Shown here one piece after another: positions 27-64,000 of a stretch of 64,000 nucleotides of DNA. The stretch spans positions 1,054,001 to 1,118,000 of the forward strand of contig NW_026570235.1 in the NCBI RefSeq assembly GCF_019649055.1, in the 5' to 3' direction. The notes under the pieces were generated by a model. That model was not told the DNA's origin, searched no databases, and saw nothing but the letters and a program-made list of their open reading frames with translations. A program made the position numbers and the translations under genes. Source of the stretch: Paramacrobiotus metropolitanus. Taxonomy: Eukaryota; Tardigrada; Eutardigrada; Parachela; Macrobiotidae. Positions within the stretch are counted from its first letter, which is position 1; each line of letters begins with the position of its first letter.

Positions 27-5412
<5,386 letters not shown>

Positions 5413-6073: not shown

Positions 6074-9000
6074 TTATGACAAGGGCACAACAACTTCAAC
6101 GATCCCGAACGCCTTCAACTTCCCATCACGAAAGATGAACTGATCACCCGGCCGCAGACATTCCGGTTGTTTGATGAACTTCAATCCCACACTGGTCGGG
6201 TTAGCAGCCACTCCGCCATTCTACGGAAGCAGAAAATTACCATCAAATACATCTACACTGTGTTTCATTCATCTTCCCATCCGGGAATTTATATTACTAT
6301 GCGCAGGAAGACCTTTATGTTCTCTCTTGTACCTGACTATCGACATGTGCAATCACAGCTGTCTGTCGAATATAACCGCAATGCACCGTTCCCTGGAGGC
6401 CAGCTGAGACCAGTTTCGTGTGCGTGAGAATCCTTAGGACTGCGCTGAATACGTAGCACGGCACCAGCGCCGAGGTAGGATCAGTCAGTACCATGCCCTG
6501 GAAAGAAACAACCGCAGCTGACTCTGGGGAAAAATTGGATCACGCGAATCCAGGTAGCACTTACTCGTCGGATAGGAAACCTTTCGTCTTCCACTACCAA
6601 ACCAACTGCGGCAAACTGGCCGGTTCGTATACTGCAATTACAATACATTTCTGCTAACCTCCGAAAAACTATAGAAAACAAATTCCCCAAAGCAAAAGAC
6701 ACCCCAGGAAACGGATTGTTGTTCCTTTCTTACATTTTGCAGGGAGCATGACTGCGTTGAATGCTTTTTATCCGAGCTTTGGTGTACTGGCCATCGGCTG
6801 TAGGGCCAATAACTAGAAGATCATCAGCAGAGATCGAGCCCCTGCGAAAACCCAGTATCGTGGTAAAGTCAATGCAAAATCACAATGCAACAAAGAAAAA
6901 ATAATGAGGCGTTATGCATACTGAAGATAAATAAGCCAGGCAAACAAATTAATAAAACTTGATCAATCTTAATGTGACAAACACAGGGATACAGAAAGCC
7001 GTATCGATACACGGATGCCATCAAATTGATACATTATGCTGATTTCCATTTTAAAGCGATGGCGAACTCAGGAAAATGCATACAGACATGATAGGGTAAC
7101 GCAAGGCCATTACCTCATTAATATTCCCGTAATAACAATGCCAACACCATCCATTTTATAAGACTTATGTATCTGCCAAAAAATACGGTTAGATACACAA
7201 CAGCGCTTTAGCATAAAATGTAGTAACAGGTGAATGAATGTTAATTACCTGAAATTCTGCGGGCTCCTGCGTCGACAAATCTCTCGATTTGGCGGCCACC
7301 GTGCATGGAAGCATACTGAGAAACTTTGTCAATAAATTCAAATTTTGCCCAGTAACATTTGAGATACTGAATACGGGGATAACGGATTCGCAGGCCAATC
7401 GCAATGCCGCGCCGATACAATCATCTTCCGTTCCAACCGGCAGTAGTGTATTCAGTCCCAAGGCTGACACTTCCAAAGCACTTCGAAGGGATTTCATAAC
7501 CACTGCCAGTCGCGCAGCTTCGCAACAATCTGCTTTCGTTATCACCACGAACACCGGCAGTCGAAGAGCTGCTACCAATGCCAAATATTCCGCGGTGTTC
7601 TGATTGCAATCGCTGAGACCACTGATCACTAACATCACAAAATCTGGCTTCGAAGCCATCAGGCCGGAAATAGTCGAGCGAAAATATTTCTGATGACCGG
7701 CAAGATCCGTAAATCTGCATACCAAAACGAAATTGTCAACATATAAGGTGTTGCATATGCGCAATGCACGCTCTCATTGTTAAAAATGCGTGCCAAAACT
7801 TACGTAATGAGCTTGAACGACTGCTGAAAAATCTGTTCGGGCGTGTCCGAAATACTGTAGTTAACCACCTGAAGAAAATTAGTCGACAATCAAAATCAGT
7901 TTTAGAAAAACAGTAAATGAGTTTTCTTATGAGCAAAAATCCTTACAATACTTATTAAGCAGGAAATCGTGGTAAACATGTTGTTACAATATTCCTTCAC
8001 ACGGCTTTTACCGTGGAAAAGTGGGATAGAATTGCAGACTACGTGCTCACTGCCCAGCTATCGCGCTGTGAAACTGTCCAACGTAATGTTCATGTTTTAA
8101 CTTCTTAGTAAATACTAAAACTTTTTAGTAAATAGTATAAATAGTAATAATAGAGTTAACGAAAAATCCGCAGAACTCGACAAACTTTCTCTACTGTTCC
8201 TGTTTCAGAATATCGAACAAAATTGATAATTCATAACCTATGCAAAAAATCCAGCATTACCAAGAAAAAACTAACTATGCAAAGGAGTCCAGTATTACCT
8301 GACCGTTTGTTGAAAACCCGATCATTTCCCGACACACGCTTGACGTCCGCCCGGTCTGAATTTCATGAGGATGTTGAAAAAGATTCAACCTTGCTTTTCC
8401 GCGACCGTTATCCAGTTCTCCAGACGAAAGAACACCGATTGTTGTACTTTTCCCACTGTCAACCGCTCCCAGAACGGAGATTCGAAAGTCCACAAACTGG
8501 ATTACAGCAGCGTTATATATTTTCTTTTTCCATACATGTCATCTGTACACTGTTACCTCATCTGGATCATCTGGAGTCTGACGAAGCATTACTTCGGCAA
8601 TTCGCTTTCCATTATGAATGAACTCTTGTATCAACAGAATCTCTGCCCCCAAACTGTAACATATACAAACCATAATTACACACATGAAATATACGCAACC
8701 AAACAACAAAAAGACTGAAACTGCTGCGATATAGATTGCTAATTAGGCAACATACTCTTGTTGTCTTGCAGTAATCACTTACAGTAATGAGTAATCATAC
8801 TAATTTCAATCAAATGCAAGCAAGTTAACGCCACCAGAATAAAATGTAATAAAATGTGCAAAACTGGGAAGCTTTGCCAAATGCAATCCAATTTAACCAA
8901 ATATTATCCCGATGCACAGAAATTTGAAATCACACGATGCATAAAAATCAAATCACTGTTTATCTGAAAATTTGCAATAGAAGTGAAATACTTTTTTGCC

Positions 9001-45345: not shown

Positions 45346-47961
45346 AACCGCCGTGTTGTACTGATTATGCTGTCAGGCCCCGGCCGAATCCTCGGGATAT
45401 ATCCTTTTTTACATATATGTCCGCTAACACAATTACGACACAGGACAGATCATAATGGGCGCTGCGCATCCCGCGTCATCGACTAATTTTCGAAGGTGAA
45501 AGTTCCGGAACGACCAGCTGTTAAGCACACTCACTGACATAAAACGCGCCGAGCTGCTGCTGCGCGCTGCAGGTTTTCGTGATGTTGCCAGCGTTGATGG
45601 TTAACTTGTATATTATGGCTGTAAGGTTTATCGATTGAATTCCGCACATGGAACCCACTGTGCATACCACAAGGACGGGGGATAAAAACACTAAAACACA
45701 CGGTTAATTCTTAGATGATGCATCCAGGAATCAATAAGATTATTAAACGCAAGTCACAAACTGTAGGTAGCATCACAATATGAATGGAACTGGAAATGTA
45801 GCTGCATTTACAGCCGATCGACCATGTGTACACACACGTCACATGTTCAGAATAAACGTTCTGTATCGTACTTGTAGGGTTCCGACTTCCGAAGTAAGCA
45901 CGAGTACTAATTCAGAAGCGGCGACTTGTTAGTACAATCGATATTCATAAGTATTTCGATTCAAAAATATTCTGAACCATTTTGTGAAGTAAAACCGTTG
46001 AGTGCTCTGTGCTTTTAATCCTAGGAATGCATAAAAAAGGGATGTACATGTATCTTATATGAACATTTTATATTAAGTATACTATATATCTATAGATGTT
46101 CATAATTTAACTACTCCAGTATTACTCTAGTAATTAAGCCCAATTTCTATACAACATCTATGCATTTACATTTATATGTTTACATTATTTTCGTTATAAT
46201 TCCGGTGCAAAAACATAACAGTCCGAATTATGTGAGTTCAGTGATCATTAGTACGTTAATAAGTTGTCTAAAAACATTCCTTTGACTTGCTGGTTGCGAC
46301 ACTTCTTACAATATTCTTACAGTAAGTAGATCTTACTCTATAACTCTAGTATACGAAGCAGTGCCTTTGATTTTGACTTTAAAAACATTAATTTTTGTAT
46401 TATGAAATCAGCGCTGCAGCGTGCGTACCAGGCTACCAGCTATCATTAATAGTACTCGTATATAGATATCATAAAATTCTTGGCTCCAGCCGTACGTTTA
46501 ATTTGCCGGGTTGAAATGCAAGAAATCTGTAAGGAGCGTGGTAATGTTGTGCCGCAATTGGATCGAAAGCGAAAGATTATACGATACTGTTACTGTACGA
46601 TTACTCGCGTATCTGCAAACCTGTTGACAACACCCATAGAATTAAATATGTTTTAAAAAAAGAACTAAAAATTCAGATACCAAAAAAACAAAATGCGACT
46701 GGTTCATATGGATAATCAGGAATGTTTGTGATGATACATGTAACCGATTCTGGATGACAGTGGATTCGCACTACATGCGCATTAAATTAATTTGCTGATT
46801 GACATTTCTGGACTTGCCTCGTAAACTGATCTTGTTTTATGACCACAGATTTTCTTCACTGTTCTGTTGCAATCGTGAAATTTGGATTACTTACTACATT
46901 TTTAATACAGCGCAAAAGCCTATATAGATATTTGAAAATTTTAACATTCATATAACCCAACTTTCGAAACTATCCGGGTAGTGCTTTCTTACACAATAAC
47001 TAATTAATTATAATATCGATGAATGATTAAAGATACGTAGTATTACCAAGGCAATATTGCTATGGCAGTACTGTACTATTTCGCTAGTATTTTAACAGAT
47101 TTACGTATTTTAACAGATTACGGATTAGTATTTTAACAGATTGCTGCATTACGTTACAGCAAGTACATTTTTTTGAGTGGGACATGTGCCTCCACCTTAT
47201 GTAAGTAAGTAAGTTCAATCAGTTATAAAAGTAAAACCTACGGTCGGCAGAAATGTTTCTCACACAGACACAACAGTACAATAATGCATAAAAATTATCT
47301 GTGTCATTTTCCGGTGGTAGCTCGGTGATCAATATTTGAGTTTCCACCGGTTCTGTTAATGTAAAACGACTAATGTCAGCACATAACCTTAAGGTACAAC
47401 CTTTGCTAAACTATACCGTCACCGCTGTAATCGGACCGATTCGGGCCGAATTCAAGTTGCTAACAGTAACCGCTGATATTGCAGTATGTAGTTGTACGCA
47501 ATTAAATGTAGATCAATAGGTGAAAACAGTGGTTCTTTTATGCTTTTGTCGATGTACCCGTCGCACCGCTAACTGAAGTGCAAACGCACCACCTCGCTTC
47601 GGCCAATAAGCAGTCGCTCCGACTTACATGATCATCAGATAATTATTGATATGGGCCTTAGATGTGTGCTATATTATGAACAATAATCGTATTATTGATT
47701 AAAAACCAGTGCATTCCGTGCAATTCCGAGGAGCGTGGATATTTTCTTGGGAGCAATGGCATTTTTGACATGAACGTTATTATAATAATCGTTTACTGAC
47801 ATATAGCGCACTGATAAGATGCGATAGCTGTGCTATGCTCACGCGATATTTAAGCAAACCGCGTTCGGAATAATCCCATTCTGTGTGAACTGTGAAAAAC
47901 AGGTTTCGATTGTTTTGCATTTGCTGCACACTGGGCGGCAAATTAAGCAGATCGTTAAAAA
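45346..47961. other. Intergenic, divergent promoters of nuclear receptor and DHCR7-like gene
   Basis: No exon supported. Contains a three-copy TAGTATTTTAACAGAT tandem repeat at about 47085-47143. Undetected 5' UTR exons of either gene could lie here. Confidence 0.4.
47085..47143. repeat. Three-copy TATTTTAACAGAT tandem repeat
   Basis: The unit GTATTTTAACAGATT is repeated three times with short spacers. Confidence 0.7.
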
Positions 47962-49867
47962 ATGTATTCCCAAGTGAATTTGTTTTTAACCGGTAAGAAT
48001 GCATTCACCCGCGTCATCGTCCCGTTGTTCCTGATCCTGATCTGTCCGCCGTTCACCATGCTGATCTATCATACCAATGTCCACCTCGACGGCTCTTTTG
48101 CACGTTTGGGACAAGAGATACAGGAAAAGGGCATTCTTAGAGAAATTGCTGACGTATGGTCGCCACGCTTCTATGGCTCGGTGACCGCATGGAAAATTAT
48201 CGGAATTTTTGCGGCACTGCAAATTTTTTTAATGCGCGCATTACCGGGAAGGCGATATTATGGGACCATAACGCCCATGGGAAACCTACCGGAGTACACT
48301 GATAACGGTCTGTCATCGTACATTGTCACCTTTGCGCTGTTTTTCACGGGATCTCTCGGATTCGGTTTATTCAGACCGTCTCTCATCTATGACAATCTTG
48401 GCGATATTCTCGGCGCCTTGAATCTGACGGCATTGGCATTTTGTTTGTTTCTCTATTTTAAAGGCATTTATTTTCCCTCGAGCACGGATAATAGTTCAAC
48501 GGGAAATTTTATTTTTGATTATTACTGGGGAACGGAACTGTATCCCAGGATTTTAGGATGTGATGTGAAAAAGTTTACCAACTGCCGGTTTGGAATGACC
48601 GGTTGGGCCGTTTCTGTGACTTCCTTTGCTTTCGCACAGAAAGAGATTTATGGGAAAGCCGACTGGTCAATTATTGTTTCGGCGTCGCTAATTGTTATTT
48701 ATCTGTTGAAATTTTTCTTGTGGGAATCGGGATACATGCGATCCATGGATATTATCGTGGATCGAGGAGGTTTTATGTTGTGCTGGGGGTATGTGACGAT
48801 GAACTCGACCAATAAGAAAACTTCAATAATGCAGGCGTTCACTTGATCAAATAAATTATTCATAATAAACAATTCACATTTACATCACTCACCGGGGTTT
48901 CGTAAAACATGTTATTTTATTCAACAAGTACCGGCCATGAAAATTACACTCATAAATACACGGGTGCTGCAGACGGGCAGACGAGCAACATGCTTCTTAT
49001 ACATGCATATGTGTACGTACATATAGTAAATACCTAAAGTTATTCAACGGTTATTGGTTAAATCACGAATGATAAATATTTTATAATACGTAGTACAGAT
49101 GTCGTGCGAAACATAAAATGCAGCAGAATTTTAACGTTTACCTTTACAGTGATTACTAAGTTATTTTTCGATTTTTAAACATTTATCTGTAGCTATACGA
49201 ATATTCGATCAAAACACTGACGATACATTTACTTCGGTTACAGAATCTTCTTGAAAATTTACGCATGGTTATACTGTAGTTTTCTGATTTTAATTTAGTT
49301 TGTTTGCAGTTTAGAACTTCAAATGTTTTGATTTACAGCACATCTTTAATTTTCGTGTTGTGCAGGTGTATGATGTGGGTGCCGGCAGTGTATACATCGC
49401 CGGTCATGTTCATGGTGCGACATCCCGTTGGACTGTCTTTTGCAGCCGCTACCGCTATTTTCGTCCTGGGATTGGCCGCCATTCTGGTCAACTACTGGGC
49501 TGATCACCAGCGCCAAATTGTACGGGCCACACATGGCAACACGAAGATCTGGGGAAAAAAGCCCGTCTTAATTGAGGCGGATTATTTGACCGAAACCGGA
49601 GAGAAAAAGAGTAATTTGTTGTTAGCATCGGGTTTCTGGGGCATATCCAGCCATTTTCATTATCTTCCGGAAATCTCCGCGGCATTCCTATGGAGCTGTG
49701 CTACCGGTTTGGATTACTTTTCACCCTTTTTCTATACAATTTTTCTCACCGTACTGCTTACGCATCGCGCCTTTCGGGATGAACTGAAATGCAGTAAGAA
49801 ATATGGAGTATTCTGGCAGCAATACCGTCAACTGGTGCCCTACAAAATAATCCCGGGAGTCATTTAA
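47962..49867 (+). CDS. DHCR7: 7-dehydrocholesterol reductase (sterol C7-reductase) homologue
   Basis: Two exons, 47962-48788 and 49366-49867, join through GG|GTATGT and TTGTGCAG|G to 442 residues (human about 475). The ERG4/ERG24/DHCR7 family is shown by TPMGNLPEYTDNGLSSY, FIFDYYWGTELYPRI, the C-terminal LLASGFWGISSHFHYLPEI and HRAFRDELKCSKKYG. Several hydrophobic helices fit a polytopic ER membrane enzyme. The family reduces the C7-C8 (or C14-C15) double bond of sterols with NADPH. The DHCR7 assignment over lamin B receptor/TM7SF2 rests on FDYYWGTELYPRI, the W-G…WVP stretch and the RxxG-free N-terminus; substrate is inferred. The exon 1 frame runs 19 codons past the splice site, giving no family match, which supports the intron. 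Confidence 0.88.
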
Positions 49868-56182: not shown

Positions 56183-59100
56183 TCACTTGGATTGTTTTGA
56201 AGTCTCGGACATGCGCTTGATGACGTCGAGAATAGGTGTGCTGTTAAGATCCACCACATTCGATGCCGGCTGCTTCCTACTGCGTGTGGCATAACGCGCT
56301 CCTTCAGGTGGCGGCACTAATTCTACACTGACCTTGAAAGCTTTCTTCGTATTACCCGACGAGTCCGGAGCCTTGCGTTTGGATCCCGACGTTTTGCCGG
56401 TGGACGAGTCAGCCGGTGACTGCGTGGTCCTGACCGGTTGATCCGGCTTGAACAAATCATTCACAGCCGATTCAAAGACCTTCACACTGTTGTCAAAGCT
56501 AACCGATTTACGCTTTCGTCCAGCCGTCGCCGATGTGGGCTTGTACTCCTCGTCGTCCTCGTCGGACGGCGGTGAATTGGGTTCAGAGAATTCAGGCGAT
56601 TCATCTTTCGACTTGCCACCGCGATGTGTTGCTGAACGAACAACGCCGGTACCGCTGTTCGCAGCCGGTATACGCTTACGCGTTCGCGCCGTGGGTGTTT
56701 TGTAATCGTTCTCGTCCTCGGGCGAGAGAGATCGTTTCCGGAAAGTCACGACACCGCCCATAAATGCCTCCGCGTCCGCCATGATTTGTTCTGTCGGTCA
56801 AAATCAGAATCAACTTAATTACTTGAAATGACAAGAACAAAATTCATAACTAATATATTAACAATACACCATGAACATTCCCAAGCATGTTATAACAAAA
56901 ACAAACAAACACTTGGCAACAACATGCCCATACAACCATACCGTTCACAAAATTTTAACTGACCTTTTGAGCGTTCTCCAGAGAACAACAGATGCTCCCG
57001 ATCAAGATATCTGGGTCTTTTGCTCATGCCGTACTCTCTAGCTGCTTTCTCACGCTCTTCCGCGCTAAACAAATCGGGATACATTTCACTTTTTCGCAAA
57101 GACTTCGGCGCTGGCGGAAGCTACAAAACCGCTGTTGTATCATCACGTCCAAAAGGATATACATACATACACCGGCACATTCACCGTATGGGCAATTAAT
57201 TAACAGTAAGTACTTTTGGTGCAGAGTTTTTGATTCGTTCCATCTGGATAGCCTGGATTACCCTTTCCCGTTTTAGCTTTTCCATTTCAACTCTTTCCTG
57301 ACGAATCTCTTCCAGTATACGTGCTTTTTCCTCCATGTTCTTCTGCTTTTTCATCAACAGAAATTCTTGCAGCCCAGACATCTCCGCGTCCAGGGAGTTT
57401 TCATTTGATTTCGACTTAGCTAAAAATATAGCACAACATCGGTGAAACGCTCAGTAATAAATACATTCCACCATAAAGAGAAAACCCACAATCGCAGTGT
57501 TACAATGAATGATACTTTTTGCAATACTTACCCCAATCGTTGGTAGATTTAGATGGTGACGTCGCATTATTCCATCCACTGTCACCACTAGCTGCAACCG
57601 GAACGTACATAAATAAATTATTATAAAAAATTAAAATTCAGCAATCAAATTCGCCATACGGGCAGAGTCATCCCAGCCGCCACCAGAACCCGCAGCAGCA
57701 GATTTATTGTCAGAATTCTCCCAACCGGACGATGCGGCAGTTGAAACAGCAGTACCACCAGCGGATTCACCCCAACCCGACGCATCATTATCAGTAGAGG
57801 GCTTGGGAGCAGAATCCCAACCAGAATCATCCTGTAATATACCATATCCCGTCAAGAGGATGACTGGCTTATACAATCAATTACCATTTTACTCCGTTAT
57901 CAGATCATCAAAAATCTCACCGGCTTGAACATAGCAGAAGGCGTAGAAGAAGCAGCCCCATTACCAGGGCAGTTATTAGCCCGATGTCCAGGCTGGTGGC
58001 ATTTGAAGCAATTCGATCCCCCACCTCTCGCTCCAGCTCCAGGAGTACTGTTTGCGCCACCTGCACGCGGTCGTGCCCAACTAATCCGCAAGCGCGAACC
58101 ATCAATATCCCTAACGAGAACATAATCAATGAACACCCCTCAAACTTCCAAGTAAATATAAACTGCAAAAACGACATACTTTCCCCCTAGTTCAGTCGCC
58201 GCTTTCTCACATTCGGCTACCGTTTCCATTGTGACGAAAGCGAACTTTCCCTTCTCGCCGTCTTTGACAAATGTGTCTTTCACGGTTCCGCATGATCCAA
58301 ATACAGATTTCAAGCGCTCGGCATCAACAGACGGAGCTACAAAAACATACAGTTTACCGTTGACAAAATCCAGCCAGGCTGGGACAAAAACACAGAAATA
58401 CGTACCGACACAAAAGACGCTTAATTTAAAGCCACCGTGTCTGTCATCCGGACAGGGTTCGCCAGTAAGTCTGAAAAGATCTACCAGTTGAGCAAGACGA
58501 GTAAATTCATGTCCAAAAATCATTGTTCAACAATTACCCCATGCTTCGATTGCGCCCAGCAATGTCCGAGCTATTAACACTGCTCTCCCCCGCAGTGGAT
58601 GTGTGTGAGTCTGATCCCCAGCTCTGACCGACACTGCCACCTAAAACATAGAAAATTTCAAATAATAAAAATCAATCCATCACCCGGCGAAATACGACAT
58701 ACCCGTAGGCTCGCCCCAGCCACCATCAGAACTAACGGCAGCAGATTGATCGCCAGACGGAGGAGCACCCCATCCAGACGACATGCTATCGGTAGACGGT
58801 GCAGCGGTAGCATTTGCCGACTCGCCCCAGCCAGATGAATTTTCAGTAGGTGCAGACGTCGGAGCGGAATCCCAGCCAGCATCATCCTGCACCAATCGAC
58901 ATCAAGTAACGAATAATTTAGCACCAATCATTATTCAATGTACCGTTTTGGCCGAAGGCGAGGAAGAATCAGCCGCACCAGGACAGTTGTTTGCCCGATG
59001 TCCAGGCTGGTTGCATTTAAAGCAGTTGGATCCACCTCCTCTCGCGCCCGGAGCGCCGTTGCCGCCGCCAGGACGCGGTCGTGCCCAACTAATTCTCAAT

Positions 59101-62100
59101 CGCGAACCGTCGATATCTCTAACGAGAATACAACTGTTAAAAAAATGCAATTTAAGTTTAATATAAATACCACATACTTTCCACTCAACTCCGAAGCTGC
59201 TTTTTCGCATTCCGCTACTGCTTCCATTGTGACGAATCCGAACTTGCCTTTCTCTCCGTCTTTAACAAAAGCGTCTTTCACGGTTCCGTATGCTCCAAAA
59301 ACAGTCCTAAGGCGGTCGGCATCGACAGACGCAGCTACAATAGATTGGTAATAACTGCAAATGCCAGCCTGAGCGAAACAAAAGGCAAACATACCGATAC
59401 AAAAGACGCTTAACTTAAAACCACCGTGCCTATCATCTGGGCAAGGTTCGCCAACAAGCCTGAAATCTTGAGCATTTAAAAGAAGAGAACAATTCATAAA
59501 ACACGTCATAAAACATCGTTTAAAGACTTACCCCATGTTTCGATTGCGGCCAGCATTGTCTGACCTATAAACAGAACCTGCCGAAACAGACGCGTTGGAG
59601 TCCGATCCCCAGCTCTGACCGGCACTACCACCTGGAAAAAATTAATATTATATTGAATTTCCGCAACTCGGCAATGCTAAATATATGACATACCCGCAGA
59701 GTCTCCCCAGCCACCAGAACTATCGGCAGTAGCTTGATCGCCAGACGGTGGAGCACCCCATCCAGACGCCGTGCTATTATCAGTTGACGGAAGAGCAGCG
59801 GTAGTACTTGCAGAGTCGCCCCAGCCAGATGAATCTTCAGCAGGCACCGGATTGGGTTTGGGTACGGAATCCCAGCCAGAATCATCCTGCAACATCCCAT
59901 ATATCGTCAAGAGAATGACAGTCTCATAATCAATTACCATTTTAATTATTTATAAAATTGCCAGAGCATCTCACCGATGTGGAGCTAGCAGAAAGCGTCG
60001 AAAAAGCTGTGCCTGAACCAGGGCAGTTATTGGCCCGATGCCCAGGCTGCTGACATTTGAAACAATTCGACCCCCCACCCCTCGCTCCAGGAGTGCCGTT
60101 TGAGCCACCTGGACGCGGTCGCGCCCAACTAATCCGCAATCGAGAGCCATCGATATCTCTAAAGAGAACTTTATCAATAAAAACAATTTCAAAGTAAACA
60201 TCAACTGCAAAACGACATACTTTCCATTCAATTCCGAAGCCGCTTTTTCACATTCTGCTACTGTTTCCATTGTGACGAATCCGAACTTTCCCTTCTCGCC
60301 GTCTTTGACAAAAGCGTCTTTCACGGTTCCGCATGATCCAAAAACGGTTTTCAAGCGTTCGGCATCAACAGACGGCGCTATAAAAGTTTAATAACAAAAC
60401 ATTAACAATAAAACTCACAGGCGGGAATAAAAAGAAAATACACACCGATACAAAAGACGCTTAATTTGAAGCCACCGTGTCTATCATCAGGACAGGGTTC
60501 GCCAGTAAGTCTGAAATAATTTACCAAGACGAATAAATTCAATAAATTCACGCTCCAAAAATACTGTTTAACAGTTACCCCATGCTTCGATTGCGTCCAG
60601 CATTGTCTGACCTATTAACACCGCTATCCGAAGTGGACATGCTTGCGTTAGATCCCCAGCTCTGAACGGCACTGCCACCTAAAACATCGAAATTCTTTCA
60701 AAAAAATAAATTCAACAGCCGGCAATGTATGACATGCCCGTAGAGTCGCCCCAGCCACCATCAGAACTAACGGCAGAAGATTGATCGCCAGACGGAGGAT
60801 CACCCCATCCAGACGACATGCTTTCAGTAGACGGTGTAGCGGTAGTACTTGCGGAGTCGCCCCAGCCAGATGAGTTTTCAGTAGGTGCAGACTTCGAGCG
60901 GAATCCCAGCCAGCATCATCCTGCAACGTTCGAGGATCTCGTAAAAAATGTTTACCAGCATCAATCATTATTTAAGTATTCAAATGTTACCGCTTTGACT
61001 GAAGCCGAGGAAGCATCAGCCGCACCAGGGCAGTTGTTCGCCCGATGTCCAGGCTGGTTGCACTTAAAGCAGTTCGATCCACCTCCTCTAGCTCCCGGGG
61101 CGCCGTTACCGCCGCCAGGACGCGGTCTCGCCCAACTAATTCTTAATCGTGAACCGTCGATATCTCTATCCAGATCACAACGGTTAAGAAATGCAATTTA
61201 AATTTATCATAATATCACATACTTTCCACCCAACTCCGAAGCTGCTTTTTCGCATTCCACTACGGTTTCCATTGTGACGAATCCGAACTTGCCTTTCTCT
61301 CCGTCTTTAACAAAACCGTCTTTCAATGACTCCAGCATTTCCGATACTGCGCTCAGCATTTGAGACGGCAGCCAGAATGCTCTGATCGATACTGCCGAAG
61401 ATTTCGCCAACCACACAGCGCCAGGAGCTCAGCAGAGCAGCGTATCAGTCGCATCGAATCCAGCATTCATTGCTCCCTCAGCACGCAAGAAGCCGTGCGA
61501 GATGCCCTGTAGATACTACTGCAGAGTCATGAAGCGCTCGCTAGCAGAATTCAACCAGAATTGTAACCCCAGCCATTCGATTTTCATCGTACTCAGGAAT
61601 TCCAGAGGTAAGATTCGATAACCAGTTAGGAATGAATAACTGACTGCGGCCGTAGAAACAGCGCTTGGTCCAGGACAGTTATTCGCTCGATGTCCAGGCT
61701 GGTTGCATTTGAAACAACACGATCCACCGCTACCCGCTCCAGGAGTGCTGTTACTGCCACCAGGACGCGGTCGTGCCCACCCAATTCGCAACCGCGAACC
61801 ATCGATATCCCTAATGAGATTTTTATCAGGGAAGACCTTTCAAATCGATTGAACGAAACATTAACATCAAAACTGACATACTTTCCCCCCAGCTCAGCCG
61901 CTGCTTTTTCGCATTCGGCTACCGTTTCCATTGTGACGAAAGCGAACTTTCCCTTCTCGCCTTCTTTAACAAATGCGTCTTTTACGGTTCCGCATGATCC
62001 AAAAACAGATTTCAAGCGCTCGGCATCAACAGACGGCGCTATAAAAGTTAAATAATGAAAATTCCCAGTTACCACTCGCAAGCTGGAATAAAGAGGAAAA

Positions 62101-64000
62101 ACCTACGTACCGACAGAAAAGACACTTAATTTAAAGCCACCATGTCTGTCATCTGGGCAGGGTTCGCCCACAAGCCTGAAATATTTACCAATTAATAAAG
62201 ATGGTCTTAGGAGAGTTAATTTACATTAAAAACGCATTGTTTAACAATTACCCGATGCTTCCACTGCGTCCAGCATTGTCTCGCCCATTAACAGAGCTAG
62301 CCGGAGTAGAAGTGTCCGAGTTCGATCCCCAGCTCTGACCGGCGCTGCCACCTACAAAATTAAAATCAATTACAAAAATAACTGAACACCCGGCAATGCA
62401 CGACACACCTGCAGAGTCTCCCCAACCGCCCCCACTAGAACTATCGGCAGCAGCTTGCTCACCAGACGGAGCAGCACCCCATCCAGACGTCGTGCTATCG
62501 GTTGATGGAGCAGAGGTAGTACTTGCAGAGTCGCCCCAGCCAGATGAATCTTCAGCAGGTGCAGACTTCGGAGCGGAATCCCAGCCAGCATCACCCTGCA
62601 ACATCCCATATCTCGTCAAGAGAAAGACAATCTCATAATCAATTACTGTCTTCAATATTCCCCAAATTGTCAGAATGTCTCACCGGCGTGAAGCTTGTAG
62701 AAGGCGTCGAAAATGCTGTACCAGGGCAGTTGTTGGCCCGGTGCCCAGGCTGGTGGCATTTGAAGCAATTCGATCCCCCACCCCTCGCTCCAGCTCCAGG
62801 AGTGCCGTTCGAGTCAGCTGGACGAGGTCGTGCCCAACTAATCCGCAAGCGCGAACCATCGATATCTCTAATTAGAAACTTGATCAATAATAACCCTGAA
62901 CGAAACATGAACTGCGAAAGCGACATACTTTCCCCCAAGCTCAGCCGCCGCTTTTTCGCATTCGGCTACCGTTTCCATTGTGACGAAAGCGAACTTTCCC
63001 TTCTCGCCGTCTTTAACAAATGCGTCTTTAACGCTTCCACATGATTCAAAAACCGTTTTCAGGCGCTCGGCATCAACAGACGGCGCTATAAAAGTTAAAT
63101 AATAAAAATTCCCAGTTACTGCTTGCAAGCTCGAATACAGAAGAAAAACCTACGTACCGACAGAAAAGACGCTTAATTTAAAGCCACCATGCCTGTCATC
63201 TGGGCAGGGTTCGCCAACAAGCCTGAAATGCTTAACCAGTAAATAAAGATGGTCTGAGAGTAAATTTACATTACAACGTATTGGTTAACAATTACCCGAT
63301 GCTTCGACTTCGTCCGGCATTGTCTCGACCATTAACAGAGCTTGCCGGAGTAGAAGTGTCTGAGTTCGATTCCCAGCTCTGACCGGCACTGCCACCTAAA
63401 AAATTATAATGCAGTTACAAAAGTAATTCAACGGCAATATACGACAAACCTGCAGAGGCGCCCCAGCCACCATCAGAACTAACAGCAGTCTGATCGCCTG
63501 ATGGAAGAGCACCCCATCCAGACGACGCGCTATCCGTAGAAGGAGGAGCGGTTGTGCTTACCGACTCGCCCCAGCCAGATGAATCTTCAGCAGGTGCAGA
63601 CTTTGGAGCGGAATTCCAGCCAGCATCATCCTGCAACAATCGAACATCACCTAACAAATGTTTAATTTAGCTCCAACCATTATTCAATGTTACCGCTTTG
63701 GCAGAAGCCGAGGAAGCATCAGCGGCACCAGGACAGTTGTTCGCCCGATGTCCAGGCTGGTTGCATTTAAAGCAGTTGGATCCACTTCTAGCTCCCGGAG
63801 CGCCGTTGCCGCCGCCAGGGCGCGGTCTTGCCCAACCAATCCGCAAGCGCGAACCATCGACATCCCTAATAAGAACTTGATAAAAAAAAACGCTAAAGGC
63901 TAAACTACATCAACTACAAAAGCGACATACCTTCCCCCTAGCTCGGCAGCCGCTTTTTCACATTCGGCTACTGTTTCCATGGTGACGAAAGCAAACTTTC
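56183..64000 (-). CDS. Multi-cassette RRM / CCHC zinc-knuckle / WG-repeat protein (5' end beyond window)
   Basis: One long gene read leftwards, entering the window inside an RRM exon. Each ~1-kb cassette has five exons: RRM-1 (LVGEPCPDDRHGGFKLSVF, RNP2-like KLSVFCVG), RRM-2 (APSVDAERLKSVF… GKFAFVTM as RNP1), Zn (DIDGSRLRISWARPR, then CFKCxQPGHRANNC, a C-x2-C-x4-H-x4-C knuckle), WG (four GW motifs: GWD, SGWG, SGWG, GGWG) and a short SWG exon (GQSWGS, NGRDNAGRS). Seven copies, listed separately, are followed by terminal exons 57419-57214 (coiled coil, EFLLMKKQKNMEEKARILEE), 57120-56964 and 56790-56183 (basic, Ser/Pro-rich, FRKRSLSPEDENDYKTP, TRSRKQPASNVVDLN). Phases match at every junction except in copies 3/4. 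RRM plus knuckle implies RNA binding; repeated GW/WG motifs can bind Argonaute (as in GW182), so an RNA-silencing or mRNP role is possible but unproven. I know no named family with this build. Confidence 0.82.
57532..58470 (-). repeat. Array cassette 7 (type B, last copy)
   Basis: Exons: RRM-1 58470-58406, RRM-2 58336-58180, Zn 58110-57921, WG 57831-57660, and a divergent, shortened SWG-position exon 57591-57532 (SGDSGWNNATSPSK) with phases 1 to 1, which connects the array to the unique C-terminal exons. RNP1 GKFAFVTM, knuckle CFKCHQPGHRANNC. Confidence 0.86.
58538..59459 (-). repeat. Array cassette 6 (type A)
   Basis: Exons: RRM-1 59459-59395, RRM-2 59334-59178, Zn 59118-58944, WG 58886-58703, SWG 58640-58538. 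All intact. Knuckle CFKCNQPGHRANNC after NGAPGARGGGSN; RNP1 GKFGFVTM. Confidence 0.88.
59532..60510 (-). repeat. Array cassette 5 (type B)
   Basis: Exons: RRM-1 60510-60446, RRM-2 60377-60221, Zn 60158-59975, WG 59886-59694, SWG 59631-59532. The five exons total 699 nt (233 codons), all phases intact. Knuckle reads CFKCQQPGHRANNC; RNP1 is GKFGFVTM. Confidence 0.88.
60579..61327 (-). repeat. Array cassette 4 (type A, damaged)
   Basis: Exons: RRM-2 remnant about 61327-61223 (no RNP2 or first helix), Zn 61165-60991, WG 60920-60738, SWG 60678-60579. The WG exon is 183 nt instead of the 184 of cassette 6: a single G is missing near 60896 (CTTCGAGCGG versus CTTCGGAGCGG elsewhere), shifting frame. 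Its donor is GC (ACGG|GCATGT) where others have GT. The copy may be skipped, non-functional, or affected by an assembly error. Confidence 0.8.
61328..61644. other. Non-repeat segment at the cassette 3/4 junction
   Basis: About 317 bp with no similarity to any cassette part, bounded by the end of the cassette-3 Zn exon and by a sharp break inside the cassette-4 RRM-2 exon (after GGFVKDGEKG-type coding). It replaces the WG, SWG and RRM-1 exons and half an RRM-2 exon. It is open on the + strand for about 85 codons (including KKPCEMPCRYYCRVMKR), but no start or family is evident. Confidence 0.7.
61645..62175 (-). repeat. Array cassette 3 (truncated after zinc knuckle)
   Basis: Exons: RRM-1 62175-62111, RRM-2 62038-61882, Zn 61810-61645. 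The RRM is full and RNP1 reads GKFAFVTM. The Zn exon ends PSAVSTAA with a GTCAGT donor in the normal phase. The WG and SWG exons expected next are missing and replaced by unrelated sequence. Confidence 0.8.
62252..63222 (-). repeat. Array cassette 2 (type B)
   Basis: Exons: RRM-1 63222-63158, RRM-2 63085-62929, Zn 62867-62684, WG 62595-62409, SWG 62351-62252. All phases intact (65, 157, 184, 187 and 100 nt; total 693). Knuckle CFKCHQPGHRANNC, followed by an AFSTPSTSFTPV tail typical of type B. Confidence 0.88.
63296..64000 (-). repeat. Array cassette 1 (partial, type A)
   Basis: Exons: RRM-2 from beyond 64000 to 63931, Zn 63865-63694, WG 63630-63450, SWG 63395-63296. RRM-2 ends AG|G, giving RDVDGSRLRIGWARPR. 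Knuckle CFKCNQPGHRANNC follows a shortened GARSGSN linker. The copy is intact where visible; its RRM-1 lies outside the window. Confidence 0.85.

Follow-up and report, generated by a model that had tools for sequence, protein, structure and literature searches.

The minus strand at the far end of the window (the whole stretch of tardigrade DNA that was analysed, 64,000 nucleotides, C15:1054001-1118000 in a 170-Mb genome of 533 contigs) holds a real, constrained, multi-cassette protein-coding gene. Eight cassettes stand in tandem in this gene, seven of which reach into the window, and a full one encodes an RNA recognition motif (RRM), a CCHC zinc knuckle and a linker with GW/WG tryptophans. Our leading interpretation, put forward tentatively and from sequence alone, is that the product would be a repeat-expanded RNA-binding scaffold that recruits Argonaute; a scaffold with no role for Argonaute follows closely in probability.

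The start of the gene is located 1,563 bases past the window end (at 65563 on the window scale), and the first exon with the ATG (65563-65367), cassette 1 and exon A of cassette 2 all lie outside the window. A full cassette consists of five exons, of 65 (A), 157 (B), 166-190 (C), 172-193 (D) and 100-103 nt (E). The RRM is distributed over the end of A, the whole of B and the start of C, the knuckle (CX2CX4HX4C) is located in C, four GW/WG tryptophans are found in D and usually one SWG in E. Exons A to E start in phases 2, 1, 2, 0 and 1, respectively, and the cassette ends in phase 2. Since it begins and ends in the same phase, the reading frame could survive the gain, loss or skipping of a whole cassette. 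The splice sites of the repeating exon model have AG acceptors and GT donors, with a single GC exception (exon D of copy 5). This regularity is partly a matter of construction, because the patterns used to search for exon ends contained the splice letters; the lengths and frames are independent of the patterns.

All five exons are present in copies 1, 2, 3, 6 and 7. Within the window, and always on the minus strand, cassette 2 contributes B (64087-63931, crossing the window end) and C (63865-63694), together covering 63694-64000, followed by D (63630-63450) and E (63395-63296) at 63296-63630. Cassette 3 (62252-63222) is complete, with A at 63222-63158, B at 63085-62929, C at 62867-62684, D at 62595-62409 and E at 62351-62252. 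The same is true of cassette 6 (59532-60510; A 60510-60446, B 60377-60221, C 60158-59975, D 59886-59694, E 59631-59532) and cassette 7 (58538-59459; A 59459-59395, B 59334-59178, C 59118-58944, D 58886-58703, E 58640-58538). Cassette 8 (57660-58470; A 58470-58406, B 58336-58180, C 58110-57921, D 57831-57660) is devoid of E and continues into a short exon at 57532-57591 with one more GW (SGDSGWNN...TNDW), and then into a helical exon (see below). The knuckle exons (CFKC...NNCPG) appear seven times in the window, at 63774, 62767, 61716, 61071, 60064, 59024 and 58010, and are 998-1057 bases apart from copy to copy, save for one step of 645. An earlier note on this DNA had described seven copies of about 1 kb, each with the complete trio of RRM, knuckle and GW/WG motifs. 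The seven knuckle exons agree with that count; the gene itself has eight cassettes, incomplete in the window and with one short step. The trio holds for most copies and breaks down in copy 4 (no D or E), copy 5 (no A, a partial B and a frame-breaking D) and copy 8 (no E).

The irregularities are concentrated in cassettes 4 and 5. The former (61645-62175, minus strand) has A (62175-62111), B (62038-61882) and C (61810-61645, with a possible GTCAGT donor), after which it ends and is followed by 306 bases of unmatched DNA (61335-61640), for which a search of the genome (E up to 0.01) returned only the stretch itself. Cassette 5 (60579-61325, minus strand) starts within B, of which the 3' part is left (the DNA repeat runs from 61325 and the donor comes after 61223), and goes on with C (61165-60991), D (60920-60738, 183 nt, with the GC donor) and E (60678-60579). 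A weak protein-level match to the cassette spans 61207 to 61368, into the junction DNA, so that the exact edge of homology is uncertain here. When all the exons found are translated in order, stops appear from this lesion onward. With both cassettes damaged, either something has to be skipped in splicing or the assembly is at fault here. Two skip models, one omitting cassettes 4 and 5 and the other joining C of copy 4 to D of copy 6, read through the helical exon without a stop, for products of 1,497 and 1,491 residues, respectively. Exons C and E of copy 5 have dN/dS values of 0.09-0.28 against the other copies, which argues that the damage is recent or not real. The lesion (60738-61640) is thus possibly a recent decay or a fault of the assembly.

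Constraint is apparent along the array. Not counting the incomplete B of copy 5, the cassettes have 35 exons, 34 of which keep the length class modulo 3 of their type, and all three classes occur in each of the five intron types. Pooled over all pairs of copies, and excluding D of copy 5, dN/dS amounts to 0.112 in A, 0.133 in B, 0.173 in C, 0.416 in D and 0.533 in E, while for the 28 pairs of copies it ranges from 0.09 to 0.40. Divergence is faster in the GW exons (dN 0.20-0.23) than in the domains (0.07-0.13). At the DNA level the copies share a mean identity of 0.82-0.86 in their exons, against 0.78-0.83 for introns, a contrast so small that it is the codons that carry the coding evidence. 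Which copy is closest to a given one varies by segment: copy 2, for example, pairs in A with copy 8 (and equally with 6), in B with 4 and in C with 7, by rounded identity. Such switching of partners suggests recombination between copies. Exon frame conservation, dN/dS and the invariance of the tryptophans (described below) exceed chance, and the first two are strong evidence that the cassettes are coding.

Regarding the domains, both the RRM and the knuckle score above the Pfam cut-offs in the two of the eight copies that were submitted, as had been anticipated: RRM_1 (PF00076) gave 40.0 bits in copy 1 and 37.8 in copy 3 (gathering score 20.7) and zf-CCHC (PF00098) 27.0 and 21.2 bits (cut-off 20.8), with E-values in copy 3 of 1.7e-9 and 2.9e-4, respectively. 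A profile search of the same genome placed RRM_1 above the cut-off at further copies too, and CX2CX4HX4C is present in all eight C exons. The best PDB match of the cassette RRM was nucleolin (2.7e-11), others being SRSF1, PABP and TIAR. The motif rule for RRMs is an aromatic platform in RNP1 and RNP2. Here all seven complete B exons have GKF[AG]FV as their RNP1 and the aromatic position of RNP2 is occupied by Ser in all seven A exons, so that the affinity for RNA may be low. A multi-unit, putatively RNA-binding protein is well supported by the exon anatomy and by the selection between copies.

The linkers are more divergent than the domains, and within them the tryptophans stand out. In the six readable D exons (copy 5, with its frameshift, being left out) the four W columns are all invariant, that is 24 tryptophans, as compared with 11 of the 57 other columns (hypergeometric P=0.0026); the copies share their origin through duplication, perhaps with conversion, and do not count as six independent cases. 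The same test on the single W column of E gives P=0.375, no support by itself, and a P value at the codon level was discarded because Trp has one codon. The E exons have SWG in five of six cases, with SWE in copy 2, which together with the four in each readable D exon confirms for these copies the four to five GW/WG motifs reported before. Some of the G, S and D neighbours of W are also kept while most of the linker drifts. D exons are rich in S (22.5 percent), A (17.9), G (15.4) and D (11.3), and the linkers look disordered. Successive tryptophans are 15-21 residues apart within D and 11-12 from the next near GW/WG past it, the minimum spacing of GW/WG tryptophans being 11 residues in both protein models. 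Each model contains 38 W, and a G stands next to 30 of them in one model and 31 in the other, where shuffling gives about 10 on average and 20 at most. Of these, one and two, respectively, belong to RRMs in which a W happens to come after a G (copies 2 and 4), leaving 29 linker GW/WG per model; the excess largely repeats one cassette, so these 29 are not independent observations.

Reiterated GW/WG motifs in a low-complexity segment, with the tryptophans at least ten residues apart, are the sequence features expected of an Argonaute-hook platform, and all of them are found here. In an excerpt of PMC9262622, the Argonaute-binding sites of TNRC6 (GW182) are described as having two or more Trp at a spacing of no less than ten residues, a likeness to our gene. 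The differences are the CCHC knuckles and the repeated cassettes. An RRM is common to both, since GW182/TNRC6 has one as well. A Pfam scan of four stretches (copies 1 and 3, the helical exon and the basic C-terminal ORF described below) at E up to 1 returned RRM and zinc-knuckle models only; a family uniting the three elements was absent, as were Ago_hook, M_domain and TNRC6-PABC, and the last two stretches gave no Pfam match. The motif by itself is no proof of Argonaute binding.

A possible partner was sought in the same genome, where 42 Piwi-domain matches were counted exon by exon, some with internal stops. Seven Argonaute-like loci were retrieved, and the comparison with human AGO2 covers one of them, on contig C61, where two joined exon pieces match residues 615-724 (4.7e-54). 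This Argonaute keeps A620, F653, Y654, F659, K660, C691, L694, E695, Y698 and P700 (numbering counted along the alignment). With the exception of C691 and P700, we take these residues to line the Trp pockets. The other two are pocket-3 residues according to the excerpt of PMC9262622. By these residues, a candidate docking partner is present, and the invariant, spaced W in an S/A/G/D-rich segment together with the C61 pocket are compatible with Argonaute recruitment. On C30, a TNRC6-PABC match (E 1.5e-8) adjoins a GW-rich ORF, which points to a conventional GW182 gene at that locus. The identification of the cassette gene as GW182 itself was rejected for this reason. Searches of the genome for Ago_hook and M_domain gave no match, as did the control genomes, and are uninformative.

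Other proteins share parts of the architecture. The plant proteins NRPE1 and SPT5L have short disordered repeats, with neither RRM nor knuckle per unit. They are reportedly reiterated WG/GW Argonaute-binding platforms, to judge from titles by El-Shami in 2007 and Trujillo in 2016, and would resemble the cassette gene in being built of repeats. The ciliate protein CnjB carries CCHC fingers and, to our knowledge, neither CnjB nor Wag1 has an RRM. By description, both can be set beside the cassette gene as GW-repeat proteins, tied to the Argonaute Twi1 in Tetrahymena in an excerpt of PMC5666084. The open-access PMC literature yielded neither an RRM/zinc-knuckle/GW-repeat architecture with Argonaute (a looser search being judged by titles and the starts of abstracts) nor anything on tardigrade GW182. 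An RRM followed by a CCHC knuckle occurs in single copy in RZ-1, SRSF7 and RBM4/Lark, and we know of no tandem cassettes or GW linkers in these proteins.

The single-copy layout is also seen in the closest relatives within the genome, located on C27 and C391; by eye, these two loci have no tandem cassettes and no GW linkers. The best match outside the locus (C27:215876-216187, 36% identity, E 1.2e-15, cassette residues 3-105) belongs to a glycine-rich RRM gene (GTPTRDEKSGGFRLHV...WAKPR) that has a knuckle-like exon and linkers rich in glycine and tyrosine; the next, C391 (33% identity, E 4.5e-9), encodes two knuckles. The RRM of C27 lies within one open frame versus three exons in the cassette, which argues against a simple recent copy. 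A C27-like gene may have been the parent type. C391:20501-29000 and C27:211001-220000 are near-identical by eye and differ in knuckle number; the C391 contig is short and may represent a second haplotype of C27. A weak match (E 0.012) was found at a C238 locus.

At the C terminus, the helical exon (57196-57419, minus strand) either ends in a TAA (57198-57196) or is spliced out of after 57214. Folded without an alignment, it is predicted as one helix, from residue 3 to 64 of 72 (mean pLDDT 89.5), in keeping with the coiled coil proposed previously. It joins in frame, via introns of 93 and 173 nt, with a 157-nt open frame at 56964-57120 that has a weak acceptor (a possible further exon, or the first exon of a neighbour) and with a basic, charged ORF at 56183-56790 of uncertain attribution, both on the minus strand. 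The first C-terminal donor scores 4.5 (the gene's own donors 4.2-11.5, median 8.9) and 8% of nearby GT score as high. The acceptor, at 3.3 (own range 2.4-14.7, median 10.6), is under the 90th percentile (4.3) of nearby AG. For the unspliced ending, only a weak AATATA, at 338, is located within 400 bases downstream, and an ATTAAA appears at 316 downstream of the basic ORF. The unique basic C terminus that the earlier note attributed to the gene thus fits by frame and poorly by splice sites, and it may belong to the cassette gene or to the neighbour.

If the leading reading is correct, one gene would give one spliced mRNA and a protein of about 1,500 residues, longer with the basic C terminus. 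About six RRM-plus-knuckle units would hold it on RNA, each followed by a linker whose four to five tryptophans, 11-21 residues apart, would dock in the tandem Trp pockets of Argonaute, and a single molecule could bring multiple Argonaute complexes together, along one RNA or within one RNP granule; the C-terminal helix may oligomerise the protein. The joining of the cassettes in a single mRNA, the binding of RNA, the docking on Argonaute, oligomerisation and the formation of granules are all inferred. The usual animal GW platform reaches RNA via Argonaute. If true, a protein whose repeated cassette pairs RNA binding with a tryptophan hook could itself select the RNA and set the Argonaute valency by copy number, and the GY-rich linkers of the nearest relative in the genome next to the GW linkers here would be a case for the origin of GW platforms. 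It is more doubtful that the gene represents a second animal GW class apart from TNRC6, with its own RNA clamp and its own Argonaute hook in each unit, in which the number of cassettes, changeable in frame by recombination or splicing, sets the Argonautes per RNA.

Several of these observations can be read differently. A possible explanation is a repeat-expanded RRM and knuckle protein whose W-rich linkers associate with themselves or with other granule partners and have nothing to do with Argonaute. The linkers are relaxed relative to the domains, and in C27 (and the similar C391) they are GY-rich rather than GW-rich, so that W might simply replace another aromatic sticker. The persistence of W and some of its G, S and D neighbours amid this drift, at a spacing of at least 11, speaks against it, as does the absence of both Y and F from all 24 W positions of the D exons, since simple stickers might accept them. 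The tryptophans of the TNRC6 silencing domain dock on CCR4-NOT or PAN2-PAN3. A direct docking of the cassette motifs on either deadenylase complex, making an RNA-tethered repressor that bypasses Argonaute, would fit the same exon anatomy, with RRM and knuckle choosing the targets directly; we know of nothing specific against it and rate it as improbable. Least credible by far is the view that the array consists of gene fragments that have decayed or are not expressed. Copies 4 and 5, with their absent exons, the unmatched DNA at their junction, a frameshift and a GC donor, are what one would expect of it, but the dN/dS values of the 28 pairs, length changes that keep the frame in exons and not in introns, and a single start codon with six RRM/knuckle units in frame and free of stops in both skip models indicate that decay does not extend to most copies. 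This explanation, named beforehand as one that would undo the multi-cassette gene, was rejected for the whole gene on dN/dS and frame.

As for the surroundings, interspersed short repeats with GATCA and ACATCAA words are seen by eye slightly upstream of the first exon (L001, about 2400-2850). Within the window, the stretches 4540-5412, 7192-7773 and 47959-49864 are neighbouring coding regions, which encode a partial homeodomain (17.6 bits, under the 22.9 cut-off), a GTPase of the GTP_EFTU type and, in two exons, a protein resembling the ERG4/ERG24 sterol reductases.
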